This document shows positions 55,133 to 59,955 of a stretch of DNA of 64,000 nucleotides, in pieces. This DNA comes from Thermosynechococcus sp. CL-1 (lineage in GTDB: Bacteria > Cyanobacteriota > Cyanobacteriia > Thermosynechococcales > Thermosynechococcaceae), in the NCBI RefSeq assembly GCF_008386235.1, contig NZ_CP040671.1:1676001-1740000 (forward strand). Reading direction: 5' to 3'. Below the pieces are notes generated by a model. It was not told the DNA's origin. It did no database searches and worked only from the letters and a program-made list of their open reading frames with translations. Each line of letters opens with the position of its first letter. Within the stretch, counting starts at the first letter, position 1. A program made the translations under genes and the position numbers.

Positions 55133-57469
55133 CTACGCGGTTTCCTGAGCCACCAAAGGAAAGAGGCGCACAGGGGCTAGGGCTTGCAGTTGTTGACCGA
55201 GGCGAAAGGCTTGGGGTTCGTAAAGTGCGAGGGTCAGTGTCGCAGGCAGTTGCTGGATAAAGGTGCGCGATCGCGGCAGGGGCAGACCCGTAATCTTGGT
55301 GATCAGATTGCCAATTTCTAGGGCAGCTTCCGCGTTGCGCGGTTGACCGACCCAAAGCCGCCAGAGACGGCGGGGCGCCATTTTGCCCTGTTCAATGCGC
55401 CGTAGGCCATCAATGGTTGCTAAAACAATCAGGCGATCGCCCACCGTGAGTTGCAGCGTATCACTGGGCAAAAACTGATGACTGATCTCACCGCCGAGGA
55501 ACTGCTCATGGCGATTGTAGAAAATGGGGATGACTGCATAACCATAGGCCACCTCGCCAATCAACTTGCCCTCAAGGGTGTCGCCGGCAGTAACGGTGTA
55601 ATCGGCAATCAGTACCGTCTGCTGATCAATTTGAAACAGACCCAACATTGTTTCGCCAAAGGCGGCACCGGCAAAGGCCTCAGCAGCAAGGGCATAGGCA
55701 CAGAGGGGGCGGGCACGGGGTAGGAGATCCCGCAGATCATTAGTAAGGCTGGGATCATAGATGCCAATGACCAACCCAATGGGGGATTCCCGCTGCTCCG
55801 TGGCTTGGCGGGCAATTAGGGCTGCCTCTAGATTCAACATTTCATCAGCAGTGGTGAGAACCACACTTTTGGCGGTCTCCAAATGGGCTTGGGGGAGCTT
55901 TTCTGGAATGTTGCCAAGGAGCATGGGCAGGTCTTCAAAAAGCTGAGTTTGCTCTGGGTTGTCCACCAGTAGCACGAGGGGTTGACGGAAGGCACGTAGG
56001 ATTTGCACCACCTGTTGACCAATGCGATCTAAGCCAACAACAATCACGTGATCCGCCGTGGGCAGGGGGGGACGTTTCTTGAGAAAGTCAAACCGCGCTT
56101 GCAGCAGCTTTTCCGCCAAAAGTCCCAAGACACCGACAATAAAGAGGAGACTAACGATCGCCACCAAAATACAGACCACCAGCAGCCAAGGGGGAATCGG
56201 ATCGTTTTCTAGCCCGCCAAAGACATCGCCAAAGCCCCCCAAAAGGAGAATAAAGCCGGCAGCAAAGGCCTTTTGCCATGTGAGTTCGGGGACGTTGTAG
56301 CGCAGCAGGATCGCGGTCACAAGCCACAGACCACTGCCCATCCAAAGGCCATTGAAGATCAACTCACGAGAGCGATCGCCATGGATCCACTGCCAGAATT
56401 GTTCTACCTGCTCAGGCAGTTGGCGCACCTGCTGAATGAGGCGCTGGATGGGATTGGGGTCAGGGATGGGCAAGGATTTCACCACTTCTACCCGTTCAAT
56501 CCAAATCGGGCGATCGCCCACCTCAAAGAGTAAATCCGGTGGCCAATGGTTAAAAAGGCGGTGGGGACGAGTCGGCTGGAAGATTGAGGATTGGGAATGG
56601 CAGGCGCGAATACTAATCAGGCGTTGGTGACGGCGCTGCCAGCGGTGGGCAGGCGTACCCACGAGGGGACTCTCAGCGGTAATCGTTTGTTGCAACACCC
56701 GAAACTGCTGACCCTCAATCGTAAACGCAGCAAGGATATTTTCCTCAAGGGCTGCGAGGGCGAAGGCAGGAGCTGGTAGTTCCGTGGGATTGAGCGCCAC
56801 AAAGCTCCCCAGTTTTTTCTCTAGAAGGGCGTTGAGATTATCGCGACTAGAGCGCACCACAAGATGGACATCGGGATTTAAGCGCCGAGCCACAATCGCC
56901 GTGGCAATATTGGTGGCCTCATCACTCGTAACTGCTAATAAGGTACGACAGCGATCAATCCCAGCCGCTTTCAGAACCGCCTCTTGCCGGCAATCACCGA
57001 TGATCACAGGTTCACTGAGCAACTCCGTCAACTGCGGAATTTCCCACTCAATGTTGGCGTGGCGTTCAATGGCACGAATCTCTAGGGTCAAATGCTCACC
57101 TGCAAAGCGGCGCAGACTTTGGATACAAAATTGCCCCAAACTGCCAAGGCCGCAGATAATAAAGCGATCGCCCGCAGTCGTTTCGCCTATTTGAGTGGCC
57201 TGCGGTGTGGCTGAGGCAACAGACCAGGATGTCCACCAGTAGGGAAACGGTTGACGAGGCTCAGCAGCAAAAATAAGAACACTACCCCGTTGCCACTGCT
57301 GCCAAAGGGTCTTGCCCCACCTAGATAGGCGATCTAAATCTCTTGGCTCTAAAGTTGTCGATTCAACCCAGATGCTGAGGTGGCGATCGCCGATATCAAT
57401 GAACCAAGTGGCCTTGCTGCCCAACAGTTGGCGCAGTTGGCGGTCAATGACATCCTCAAGGCTGGCCAT
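55133..57469 (-). CDS. RCK/TrkA-N protein with central two-helix pore-like segment
   Basis: This 778-residue protein has an N-terminal RCK-type Rossmann domain (about 100-245, FIICGLGSLGQFCIQSL). A linker is followed by a helix-loop-helix segment (about 375-465) with GGFGD at 411-415 in the loop. A second RCK domain (about 475-610, VIVVGLDRIGQQVVQIL) and a TrkA_C-like part complete it. The middle matches the TM1-pore-TM2 layout of potassium channels, but the usual TVGYGD filter is replaced. It is third in a glcD-cobW operon, with a 6-nt gap. It could be a channel or a non-conducting NAD(H) sensor. Confidence 0.75.
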   Translation of the reverse strand: MASLEDVIDRQLRQLLGSKATWFIDIGDRHLSIWVESTTLEPRDLDRLSRWGKTLWQQWQRGSVLIFAAEPRQPFPYWWTSWSVASATPQATQIGETTAGDRFIICGLGSLGQFCIQSLRRFAGEHLTLEIRAIERHANIEWEIPQLTELLSEPVIIGDCRQEAVLKAAGIDRCRTLLAVTSDEATNIATAIVARRLNPDVHLVVRSSRDNLNALLEKKLGSFVALNPTELPAPAFALAALEENILAAFTIEGQQFRVLQQTITAESPLVGTPAHRWQRRHQRLISIRACHSQSSIFQPTRPHRLFNHWPPDLLFEVGDRPIWIERVEVVKSLPIPDPNPIQRLIQQVRQLPEQVEQFWQWIHGDRSRELIFNGLWMGSGLWLVTAILLRYNVPELTWQKAFAAGFILLLGGFGDVFGGLENDPIPPWLLVVCILVAIVSLLFIVGVLGLLAEKLLQARFDFLKKRPPLPTADHVIVVGLDRIGQQVVQILRAFRQPLVLLVDNPEQTQLFEDLPMLLGNIPEKLPQAHLETAKSVVLTTADEMLNLEAALIARQATEQRESPIGLVIGIYDPSLTNDLRDLLPRARPLCAYALAAEAFAGAAFGETMLGLFQIDQQTVLIADYTVTAGDTLEGKLIGEVAYGYAVIPIFYNRHEQFLGGEISHQFLPSDTLQLTVGDRLIVLATIDGLRRIEQGKMAPRRLWRLWVGQPRNAEAALEIGNLITKITGLPLPRSRTFIQQLPATLTLALYEPQAFRLGQQLQALAPVRLFPLVAQETA

Positions 57470-57475
57470 AGCCTC

Positions 57476-58492
57476 CTAGCCAAAATGGGACAGCAACTCC
57501 TGTGGATCCAACTGACGACCAATCACCACCACACGAGTTTGGCGTGACTCTGCCGCTTGCCACGGGCGATCGTAAAACAAGTCTAACCGTTGACCCACCC
57601 CTTGCACCACCAGACGCATCGGCTTGCCCTCAATGGCCGCAAAGCCCTTAATGCGGTAAATGTCAGGTACTTGCAGCAATCGCTCGAGGGATTGACGTAG
57701 GCGTTGCAGATCCCAAGCCCCCAGCTCTAAACAAACCGCTTGAATCTCCGCGTCGTGGTCATGCTCCTCCTCAAAGTCATGATGGCTGGGTCGCTGCCCC
57801 AAATTCTCCTCCACCGCTGCATTAAATCCCAGCAGCAGATCCGCCGGCACCTGTCCTTGGTGAGCCGCCAGCAGCTTAATCCGTGGGGGCAATTGAGTGC
57901 GCAGTTCAGCGATGAGCAGCTCTGCCTGATCGGGAGTCAGTTGATCCGCCTTGCTGAGGATGACCAAGTCGGCACAGGCCAGTTGATCATTAAAGAGTTC
58001 CTCAAGGGGGGTGTCCTCATGCTCCAAGCTAGGATCAGCGGCCTTTTGGGCAAAGAGCGCCTCCAGATCAGCACTCACTTGACCAGCTGCTAAGGCAACG
58101 CCATCCACCACTGTCACCACCCCATCAACGGTTGCCGCATGGCGCACCTCCGGCCAACGAAAAGCCATCACGAGCGGCTTGGGTAAGGCGAGTCCAGAGG
58201 TTTCAATCACAATGTGATCAATCTCCTGCCGCCGTGCCAAGAGGGTCTGCATCGTTGGCAAAAATTCCTCCTGCACTGTGCAACACAGACAGCCGTTGGT
58301 GAGTTCCCAAATGCCCGCTGTGCGATCGCAACAGGACTGCAACAACTCGCTATCAATACCGACATCGCCAAACTCATTCACAATCACAGCAATGCGCCTG
58401 CCCGCTGCCTTCTGAAGCAACTGCCGAATCAGGGTCGTCTTACCACTGCCAAGAAAGCCGGTAATAATCGTGACTGGGATTTTTGCACTCAT
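57476..58492 (-). CDS. cobW: CobW-family GTP-dependent metal chaperone
   Basis: This 338-residue G3E GTPase has a P-loop GFLGSGKT at 12-19. The metal-binding GCLCC is at 67-71, SKAD is the base-recognition motif, and a His/Asp-rich loop (HHDFEEEHDHD) precedes the C-terminal domain. The VNEFGDVGID switch resembles the cobalamin-associated CobW subgroup, which supplies cobalt to aerobic cobaltochelatase. A zinc role is the alternative. Its ATG overlaps the glcD stop (TAATG). It is consistent with cobB elsewhere in the window. Confidence 0.88.
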   Translation of the reverse strand: MSAKIPVTIITGFLGSGKTTLIRQLLQKAAGRRIAVIVNEFGDVGIDSELLQSCCDRTAGIWELTNGCLCCTVQEEFLPTMQTLLARRQEIDHIVIETSGLALPKPLVMAFRWPEVRHAATVDGVVTVVDGVALAAGQVSADLEALFAQKAADPSLEHEDTPLEELFNDQLACADLVILSKADQLTPDQAELLIAELRTQLPPRIKLLAAHQGQVPADLLLGFNAAVEENLGQRPSHHDFEEEHDHDAEIQAVCLELGAWDLQRLRQSLERLLQVPDIYRIKGFAAIEGKPMRLVVQGVGQRLDLFYDRPWQAAESRQTRVVVIGRQLDPQELLSHFG

Positions 58493-59955
58493 TAAAATGC
58501 CTCAATGTTGGGAAAGTCTTTGAGTTGATGAGCCGCTTCCCCACAGGTTCGCGGTGTCGGAAACACTTTTTCAGGGTTGGCCAGACGTTTGGGATCAAAG
58601 GCGCAGCGCACCTGCTGCATCGTTTCTAAATCTGCTGGGCTAAACATCTCACCCATGAAACAGGCCTTATCACTACCAATGCCATGTTCCCCAGAAATAC
58701 TGCCCCCCAAGCGCACACAGAGCTTGAGAATTTCCCCCCCCAAGGCCTCCACCTCCGCAAGCGCGCCCGGTACTGCCTGATCGTAGAGAATCAAGGGATG
58801 CAGATTGCCATCCCCAGCATGGAAGACATTGGCAATGCGATAGCCACTGCGCTGACTCAGTTGTTCAATTTCCCTGAGGACGGTGGCCAGTTGACTGCGG
58901 GGAATCACCCCATCTTGGACAAAATAATTGGGACTGAGACGACCAGCAGCCGCAAAAGCCGCTTTGCGCCCTTTCCAAAGGCGGAGGCGATCTTCAGCTT
59001 CTGTAGCAACGGTTACATGGCGTGCCCCCTGTTCATAGCAAATACGTGTGACTCGCTCCTGCAAAATCGGTACTTCTGACTCCAAGCCATCGACTTCCAC
59101 CAGCAAGACCGCGCCGGCATCGCGGGGGTAGCAATTGGTGGCCACCACGTCCTCAACGGCATTGATACTCAGGTTGTCCATAATTTCCATGCCAGCGGGA
59201 ATGATACCGGCACGGATAATGGCGGAAACTGTTTCCCCGGCCGCTTCAATGGTGGTGAAGTCCGCCAATAGCACAGCGATCGCCTCCGCCTGTTTGAGAA
59301 TGCGCAGCCGAATTTCCGTGGCAATCCCGAGAGTGCCCTCAGACCCGACAAAAACCCCCATAAGATCATAGCCGGGCATTTCTGGCGCCGCACCCCCCAG
59401 TTCAACAATCTCACCATTGGGCAACACCACCGTCAGTCCCAGCACATGATTCGTGGTCACGCCATACTTCAGGCAATGGACACCGCCGGAGTTCTCGGCG
59501 ACATTGCCGCCAATGGAGCAAATAATTTGACTGGAGGGATCGGGGGCATAGTAAAACCCCTGATCGGCTACCGCTTGAGTGACCCACGCATTAATCACCC
59601 CCGGCTGCACCACCACCTGCTGATTGGCCAGATCAATGTCTAAAATCTGGTTCATGCGAGAAGTGACGATGAGAATCCCCTCGGTGTGGGGTAAGGCTCC
59701 CCCCGATAGCCCCGTCCCTGAGCCACGGGCAACAAAGGGAATCCGATAGCGATCGCACACCTTGAGGATGGCAGAGACTTGGGCAGTGGTTTGCGGTAGC
59801 ACGACCAGTTTGGGTCGTTGCCGATACATGGATAGCCCATCGCACTCATACACAAGGGCTTCTGCTGCATCACTGATGACGCTCCCCTTGCCGACAATGG
59901 CTGTTAGCTCCTCTGTGACCCGCTGCCAAGGGGTAATTTGCTGTAGTGTGGACAT
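58492..59955 (-). CDS. glcD: Glycolate/lactate dehydrogenase FAD subunit
   Basis: This 487-residue FAD-linked oxidase of the GlcD family has PFVARGSGTGLSGGALPH and GVFVGSEGTLGIATEI of the FAD-binding PP domain, and an FAD-oxidase C-domain with VFHAGDGNLHP and SGEHGIGSDK. In cyanobacteria it oxidises photorespiratory glycolate (or lactate) to glyoxylate. glcE and glcF are not adjacent. It is the first gene of a unit with cobW and the RCK protein. The gcvP gene at 24 kb acts later in the same pathway. Confidence 0.92.
   Translation of the reverse strand: MSTLQQITPWQRVTEELTAIVGKGSVISDAAEALVYECDGLSMYRQRPKLVVLPQTTAQVSAILKVCDRYRIPFVARGSGTGLSGGALPHTEGILIVTSRMNQILDIDLANQQVVVQPGVINAWVTQAVADQGFYYAPDPSSQIICSIGGNVAENSGGVHCLKYGVTTNHVLGLTVVLPNGEIVELGGAAPEMPGYDLMGVFVGSEGTLGIATEIRLRILKQAEAIAVLLADFTTIEAAGETVSAIIRAGIIPAGMEIMDNLSINAVEDVVATNCYPRDAGAVLLVEVDGLESEVPILQERVTRICYEQGARHVTVATEAEDRLRLWKGRKAAFAAAGRLSPNYFVQDGVIPRSQLATVLREIEQLSQRSGYRIANVFHAGDGNLHPLILYDQAVPGALAEVEALGGEILKLCVRLGGSISGEHGIGSDKACFMGEMFSPADLETMQQVRCAFDPKRLANPEKVFPTPRTCGEAAHQLKDFPNIEAF

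Follow-up and report, generated by a model that had tools for sequence, protein, structure and literature searches.

The window analysed here, 64,000 nucleotides of the Thermosynechococcus sp. CL-1 genome (contig NZ_CP040671.1, positions 1,676,001 to 1,740,000), carries on its minus strand (55133..57469) a gene for a 778-residue protein in which a pore-like membrane segment lies between two RCK domains. The protein belongs to a conserved cyanobacterial family whose filter, judged from family alignments, appears to lack the inner half of the K+ channel signature, the Thr-Val pair being replaced by a hydrophobic residue and Gly, while most of the outer half is kept (Gly and Tyr or Phe, usually followed by Gly-Asp). 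By this filter test the family would not be placed in the TVGYG class of K+ channels, although it appears homologous to that class. The explanation we favour, to which we give about an even chance, is that these proteins are RCK-gated tetrameric cation channels with a non-canonical filter and weak selectivity among monovalent cations. We found no description of a cyanobacterial RCK-pore-RCK family in the open-licence literature, a scope that leaves most subscription journals outside, and this kind of channel is apparently undescribed.

The filter was compared with that of K+ channels from the same phylum, found with the Pfam model Ion_trans_2 (29 new loci, 27 of them with a readable filter; L215 and L219 were dropped, and L156, from the CL-1 genome itself, was excluded). 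Two residues before the first Gly of the GYG-like triad, these control channels have Thr in 26 of 27 cases and Ser in one; the residue directly before that Gly is Val, Ile or Ala in all 27. Spacing, measured from the pore helix's small residue to the first Gly of the triad, is 12 residues in 27/27, and the triad is followed by Asp or Glu in every one of the 27.

Relatives of the Thermosynechococcus protein were aligned in two sets. A scan of named genomes gave 362 encoding stretches. The 80 best of these, together with the query, form an 81-row alignment that leans towards the query. The other set, which is less biased, has 53 rows, the query plus 52 loci drawn evenly from genomes across the phylum, with 17 divergent or other rows left out. 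Two positions before the first Gly, the named set has Leu, Ile, Phe or Met in 81/81 rows and Thr or Ser in none, with Gly at residue 411 in 79/81; the evenly drawn set has Leu or Ile in 52/53 (Thr in one, L009) and Gly at residue 411 in 52/53. Spacing is 11 in all rows of both sets (81/81 and 53/53). The query itself reads L-G-G-F-G at spacing 11 (filter-like motif LGGFGD, residues 410-415, 56225..56242 on the minus strand, as are all gene features given below), and it does not fit the pattern T-[V/I]-G-[Y/F/L]-G at the canonical spacing. Further into the loop, the first Gly of the triad is present in 80/81 named and 50/53 evenly drawn rows, Tyr or Phe follows it in 81/81 and 53/53, and residue 415 is acidic in 75/81 (72 Asp, 3 Glu) and 48/53. 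The second Gly is found in 70/81 named rows, with Asp in nine and Ser in two. The complete motif LGGYGD or LGGFGD occurs in 36 of the 52 non-redundant named members and in 29/53 evenly drawn ones.

A first-pass annotation of this DNA had presented the filter-like loop GGFGD as unusual. We reject GFG as the oddity, since 13 of the 27 canonical cyanobacterial control channels have GFG and GsuK has GFGD. Other parts of that annotation stand: GGFGD does occupy residues 411-415 of the translation, the leucine-rich run before the filter is indeed odd, and its broader interpretation, a genuine P-loop pore in an RCK-pore-RCK protein, agrees with what follows.

Across the 52 non-redundant named members, entropy averages 0.64 bits over residues 408-418 and 1.95 bits over the remainder of the membrane part (366-464), and this 11-residue segment ranks 16th of 549. 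The loop is under strong constraint, though of another kind than in an ordinary K+ filter. In an hhalign alignment of the family's pore profile with cyanobacterial K+ pores (98 columns, probability 96), a one-residue gap opens before the filter. If positions are counted back from the Gly, Thr-Val falls opposite L410-G411; a count that starts at the pore helix puts the one-residue shift elsewhere. A family scan of 65 members gave no Ion_trans_2 match at E <= 0.01, and for the pore segment it is not listed at E <= 10, a search in which the HMMER filters drop most matches above 0.1. One divergent member, L048, has a weak Ion_trans_2 match (E 0.53).

The loop is altered further in a divergent picocyanobacterial branch (L054-L063), homologous to the family over 611 columns at hhalign probability 100. 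All ten of its members have the pattern G[ED][YFL][VI]D, and six of the ten have GE[YF]VDP. An acidic residue thus takes the place of the first Gly, at residue 412, and Val or Ile that of the second in 10/10.

The pore was examined in structure predictions. The AlphaFold2 model of the monomer, built with 65 sequences, has a mean predicted local distance difference test score (pLDDT) of 89.7 and a predicted template modelling score (pTM) of 0.79. It places a first transmembrane helix (TM1) at residues 366-392 (56294..56374), a pore helix at residues 398-409 (56243..56278; also found in a second model), and a second transmembrane helix (TM2) at residues 427-464 (56078..56191), joined to RCK2. 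A three-residue loop separates the pore helix from a predicted short second helix, FGDVFGG (residues 413-419, 56213..56233; residues 413-418 in the second model), where K+ channels have an extended filter; both models being monomers free of ions, we put no weight on this helix. When the pore alone was compared with solved structures by a second structural aligner, the best match was NaK (2q69_A, Z 10.0, 2.6 Å, 103 residues), followed by KcsA variants and other P-loop channels at Z of about 9. Of the 50 listed matches, 49 are named P-loop channels or receptors, and the remaining one, 9vub, is titled only "channel C". Nav and Cav channels do not appear among these 50, save for a NaK-NavSulP chimera, an absence that carries no evidential weight. 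In these models the pore has the P-loop fold (TM1, pore helix, TM2) of tetrameric cation channels.

The two RCK domains flanking this pore, already proposed in the first-pass annotation, are confirmed by Pfam and by the AlphaFold2 model with its TM1, pore helix and TM2. RCK1 spans residues 101-328 (56486..57169) and RCK2 residues 470-693 (55391..56062; a TrkA_N-like part followed by TrkA_C). TrkA_N matches in two stretches, 98.4 bits against a cut-off of 23.8, the better at residues 103-221, and TrkA_C matches residues 622-693 with 27.0 bits, exactly its cut-off. Among 65 scanned members TrkA_N was found in all and TrkA_C in 61. RCK1 bears the fingerprint GLGSLG, and its GxGxxG is invariant (G107, G109 and G112 in 65/65), with an acidic residue at position 135, the end of the second strand, in 73/81. 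In RCK2, G479 and G484 are invariant in the 65, and residue 503 is acidic in only 33/81. In Rossmann folds generally, GxGxxG together with an acidic residue closing the second strand points to a nucleotide site, and the invariant motif and residue 135 therefore suggest a putative nucleotide site in RCK1. RCK1 and RCK2 superpose jointly on TrkA (4j9u_F, Z 22.8, 4.6 Å, 410 residues), on GsuK (4gx5_C, Z 23.6, 4.1 Å, 339 residues) and on a KtrA construct (5but_A, Z 24.1, 3.5 Å, 262 residues). The rings of CASTOR and DMI1 are also among the matches (6o7a_B, Z 22.7, root-mean-square deviation 14.4 over 394 residues; 7vm8, Z 22.2, 5.9 Å, 306 residues). In the model, RCK1 and RCK2 look like the paired ring unit of TrkA and GsuK, despite the pore inserted between them.

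If the favoured explanation is right, four chains would form a pore over a ring of eight RCK domains. Nucleotide bound to RCK1 would change the shape of the ring, and since RCK1 would couple the ring to TM1 and RCK2 would couple it to TM2, movement of the ring would pull both helices and open the pore. With only the outer ion sites left, monovalent cations would pass with weak selectivity, and the role may lie in osmotic or membrane-potential adjustment. NaK, which has no RCK domain, resembles the family in combining a K+-type pore with a filter altered in one half, and it is the best structural match of the pore alone. In the excerpts of PMC9822992 consulted, NaK is a non-selective channel with S3 and S4 as its only sites, and conversion of its filter to TVGYGD yields four sites and makes it K+-selective. 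According to the same excerpts the half that NaK retains is the inner one (TVG), the outer (DG) being altered; in this family it is the inner half that is altered, the outer being mostly retained, and the query reads LGGFGD where NaK has TVGDG. Weak selectivity would be expected here by analogy, because the inner Thr-Val is lost in roughly a mirror image of NaK, which has its two inner sites only and does not select.

Several observations weigh against this explanation. In the evenly drawn set the second Gly is kept in only 33 of 53 rows (Ala in nine, Ser in five, Asp in five, Pro in one). The first-pass annotation had raised free variation of the GFG positions among orthologues as a check: the first Gly and the aromatic residue hold nearly throughout (80/81 and 50/53; 81/81 and 53/53), and it is the second Gly (70/81, 33/53) that varies. 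The K+ control set is biased towards canonical filters, because its members were collected by the Ion_trans_2 profile and their filters read by a G-[YFLI]-G pattern, and two proteins of the CL-1 genome, L156 and L157, exceed the Ion_trans_2 cut-off without TVGYG, carrying FGIGYSE and SAEPIGAYP. A Foldseek search with the pore alone gave nothing at E <= 0.001 (best 0.32), with some non-channels among its 50 listed rows; the second aligner's own notes caution that a Z of about 10 may lack specificity where models are helical, and KcsA variants account for many of its rows. The structure models are of monomers, without ions and without a control fold of a canonical channel. Finally, the gene is dispensable in Thermosynechococcus, being a fragment in one and absent from another of 11 genomes.

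A sharper form of the proposal holds that the filter is a mirror image of that of NaK with S1- and S2-like sites only, in a ligand-gated family found throughout photosynthetic cyanobacteria and opened by a ring that pulls on TM1 and TM2. We regard it as doubtful, the more so because the second Gly is replaced in 20 of the 53 evenly drawn rows. This replacement also lowers the standing of a K+-selective channel and raises that of a non-conducting protein; a second Gly so often changed casts doubt even on the outer sites of some members and would leave room for a sensor.

Such a sensor, derived from a pore, would use the P-loop hairpin only to anchor and tetramerize its TrkA-like RCK ring, whose target of regulation would lie elsewhere. 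The loss of the inner sites, the helix predicted in place of the filter strand, the frequent replacement of the second Gly, the further changes in picocyanobacteria and the TrkA-like ring all agree with it. We nevertheless think it unlikely, as conservation is far higher in residues 408-418 than in the remaining membrane part, which is hard to square with a mere anchor, and no conserved partner gene stands beside the gene in the 80 named loci.

Distinctly unlikely is the reading implied by the first-pass annotation, an RCK channel that selects K+ in spite of its unusual filter, in which the GYG carbonyls would act together with some replacement for the Thr-Val sites. The pore is homologous to K+ pores, most structural matches of the RCK ring come from K+ systems, and the counts of LGGYGD or LGGFGD (36/52 and 29/53) are in its favour. 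Set against these are the missing Thr-Val pair, a loop shorter by one residue, a second Gly replaced in 11/81 and 20/53 rows and by Val or Ile in all ten picocyanobacterial members, and the lack of Ion_trans_2 among the families matched by the 65 members at E <= 0.01.

A channel selective for an ion other than K+, for example a divalent cation as in CASTOR and DMI1, has a precedent in CASTOR, in excerpts of PMC6697748 a Ca2+ channel on an RCK ring with an essential filter Asp, and could draw on the acidic residue 415, on the Glu or Asp at residue 412 in all ten picocyanobacterial members and on the CASTOR and DMI1 rings among the structural matches (6o7a_B, 7vm8), but we judge it quite improbable, as an acid after GYG is ordinary (27/27 control K+ channels), filter and layout are unlike those of CASTOR, and no Castor_Poll_mid match was seen.

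Comparison with known RCK systems bears on the layout as well as on the filter. In MthK, GsuK and BK the RCK ring comes after the pore, and the ranges of the GsuK match agree with this. The family shares with MthK and GsuK a P-loop pore, a TM2 that continues into an RCK domain, and paired RCK domains, and GsuK also has GFGD; it differs in that RCK1 (101-328) precedes TM1, the Thr-Val pair is gone and the loop is one residue shorter. TrkA and KtrA are soluble, their gate being a separate membrane protein; their rings have paired RCK halves with GxGxxG and the same fold, whereas here a single chain carries the TM1/TM2 pore between its RCK halves. With the plant nuclear Ca2+ channels CASTOR and DMI1 the family has in common an RCK ring and a P-loop pore without TVGYG (excerpts of PMC6697748). 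Those channels, in contrast, have four transmembrane segments and then RCK, with the filter AD(S/A)GNHA; according to these excerpts CASTOR is a reported Ca2+ channel with an RCK ring, and one Asp of that filter is essential. The query has no Pfam match to Castor_Poll_mid at E <= 1, and CASTOR as parent family was rejected on layout and on filter (LGGFGD against AD(S/A)GNHA).

We also encountered a second cyanobacterial RCK-pore-RCK family, here called family B (L167-L182, L184-L186, L050, L051), of about 570 residues, with a near-invariant non-K+ filter TGAGGxE. It is homologous to the present family over 535 columns at hhalign probability 100 and has the same layout, but its filter is TGAGGxE with, by eye, canonical spacing, and it has no C-terminal domain. 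TGAGG is present in 21 of 24 aligned sequences; of the three exceptions, L072 and L073 have canonical filters, and L183 is a partial sequence in which the loop was not found. Against solved structures the family B profile matches MthK (E 5.1e-10) and NaK (from E 2e-5), and no CASTOR or DMI1 entry is among the 59 solved sequences at E <= 0.01. By eye its TGAGGHE resembles ADAGNHA; we claim no kinship. L072 is the only full RCK-pore-RCK protein encountered with a canonical filter (TTTGFGD), and its source genome lies outside the class and is 7% contaminated. In the tree L072 and L073, the rows with canonical filters, are placed on long branches that join each other, and the composition of 11 rows is odd. 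Two RCK-pore-RCK proteins of about 740 residues (L052 and L053, family f25) fall outside the present family in the tree and have TGGYGD, in which the Thr is retained; this is a possible intermediate filter.

The gene is widespread in cyanobacteria, yet it can be lost. At E <= 2.3e-75, 55 of 386 phylum-wide genomes match, all of them within the class to which Thermosynechococcus sp. CL-1 belongs, and four have two copies. The best 80 of the 362 named relatives come from Thermosynechococcus, which supplies the closest, and from Pseudanabaena, Leptolyngbya, Nostoc, Microcystis, Crocosphaera and others. In each of the 80 the match to the query begins no later than residue 103 and reaches at least residue 754, which speaks against a chance finding, and every locus gave an alignable open reading frame with a version of the filter loop. 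Ten of 11 Thermosynechococcus genomes match at E <= 1e-50. Genome G089 is without any match, and in genome G388 the sole match is a fragment, residues 588-775 with two internal TGA codons. Two members, L107 and L123, come from metagenome-assembled genomes labelled Pseudomonadota and Acidobacteriota, by misbinning or gene transfer; L123 groups with Thermosynechococcus in the tree (support 99/97).

A natural family without the inner sites, its loop strongly constrained, would be the missing counterpart to NaK, which lacks the outer sites. Should its members conduct, they would be a natural means of testing which of the filter sites confer selectivity, and they would represent an overlooked cyanobacterial ion pathway. 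In the parts consulted of a 2026 study (PMC13099474), Synechocystis has at least five K+ channel homologues, of which Sll0536 is without functional data; those parts of the survey do not mention an RCK-pore-RCK protein. The family may add to the cyanobacterial ion-channel inventory.

The open reading frame of the gene runs uninterrupted for 778 codons, from an ATG at 57469 to a stop at 55135-55133. It comes third in a compact same-strand cluster, glcD-cobW-channel. Directly upstream, with 6 nt between its end and the ATG, lies cobW (57476..58492, minus strand; TIGR02475, 529.5 bits against a cut-off of 332.1), and upstream of that lies glcD (58492..59955, minus strand; TIGR00387, 565.4 bits, slightly below the cut-off of 567.9). 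The first-pass annotation had described an operon with glcD and cobW; the genes do adjoin on one strand here, and among the named loci the arrangement was seen only in Thermosynechococcus. Three named loci out of 80 have a nearby glcD, all Thermosynechococcus, and five have a nearby cobW, two of which (L094 and L106) have genes 36-37% identical and about 2 kb away. We therefore dropped the cluster as a functional clue. Neighbours were clustered for 77 of the 80 named loci, the three Thermosynechococcus loci being excluded, and no conserved partner gene emerged: the commonest family (a chaperonin by eye) occurs in 7/77 loci, six of them from Microcystis.

Other P-loop channels found in the CL-1 genome, a single contig of 2.65 Mb, are L156, L157 and L158 (G000:C1, 1852372, 1265365 and 1286663). 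The only canonical filter found in the genome, TSVGYGD, is in L158, in a 56-residue open frame whose Pfam match also crosses a stop.

Two further domains lie at the ends of the protein. An extra N-terminal alpha/beta domain (residues 1-82, 57224..57469) is predicted by AlphaFold2 with a pLDDT of 88-94 per block over residues 1-80, and has no Pfam match. It is outside the matched range of many relatives, which start at about residue 95-103; some relatives share it (Pseudanabaena, with matches from residue 6 or 29) and others lack it. At the other end, residues 699-771 (55157..55375) are predicted to fold as a b-a-a-b-a-b domain with an L7/L12-like motif, and there is a weak hint of kinship with the C-terminal domain of ribosomal protein L7/L12: HMMER gives a weak match to mitochondrial L12 (E 0.08), and hhalign against 19 cyanobacterial L12 sequences gives 24 columns with a score of 17.4 and a probability of 3.8, the maximum among 100 column shuffles being 13.2. 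A Ribosomal_L12-type domain (E 1.9e-8) also stands at the end of a long cyanobacterial protein, flotillin-like by eye, encoded by a 788-residue open reading frame (L240).

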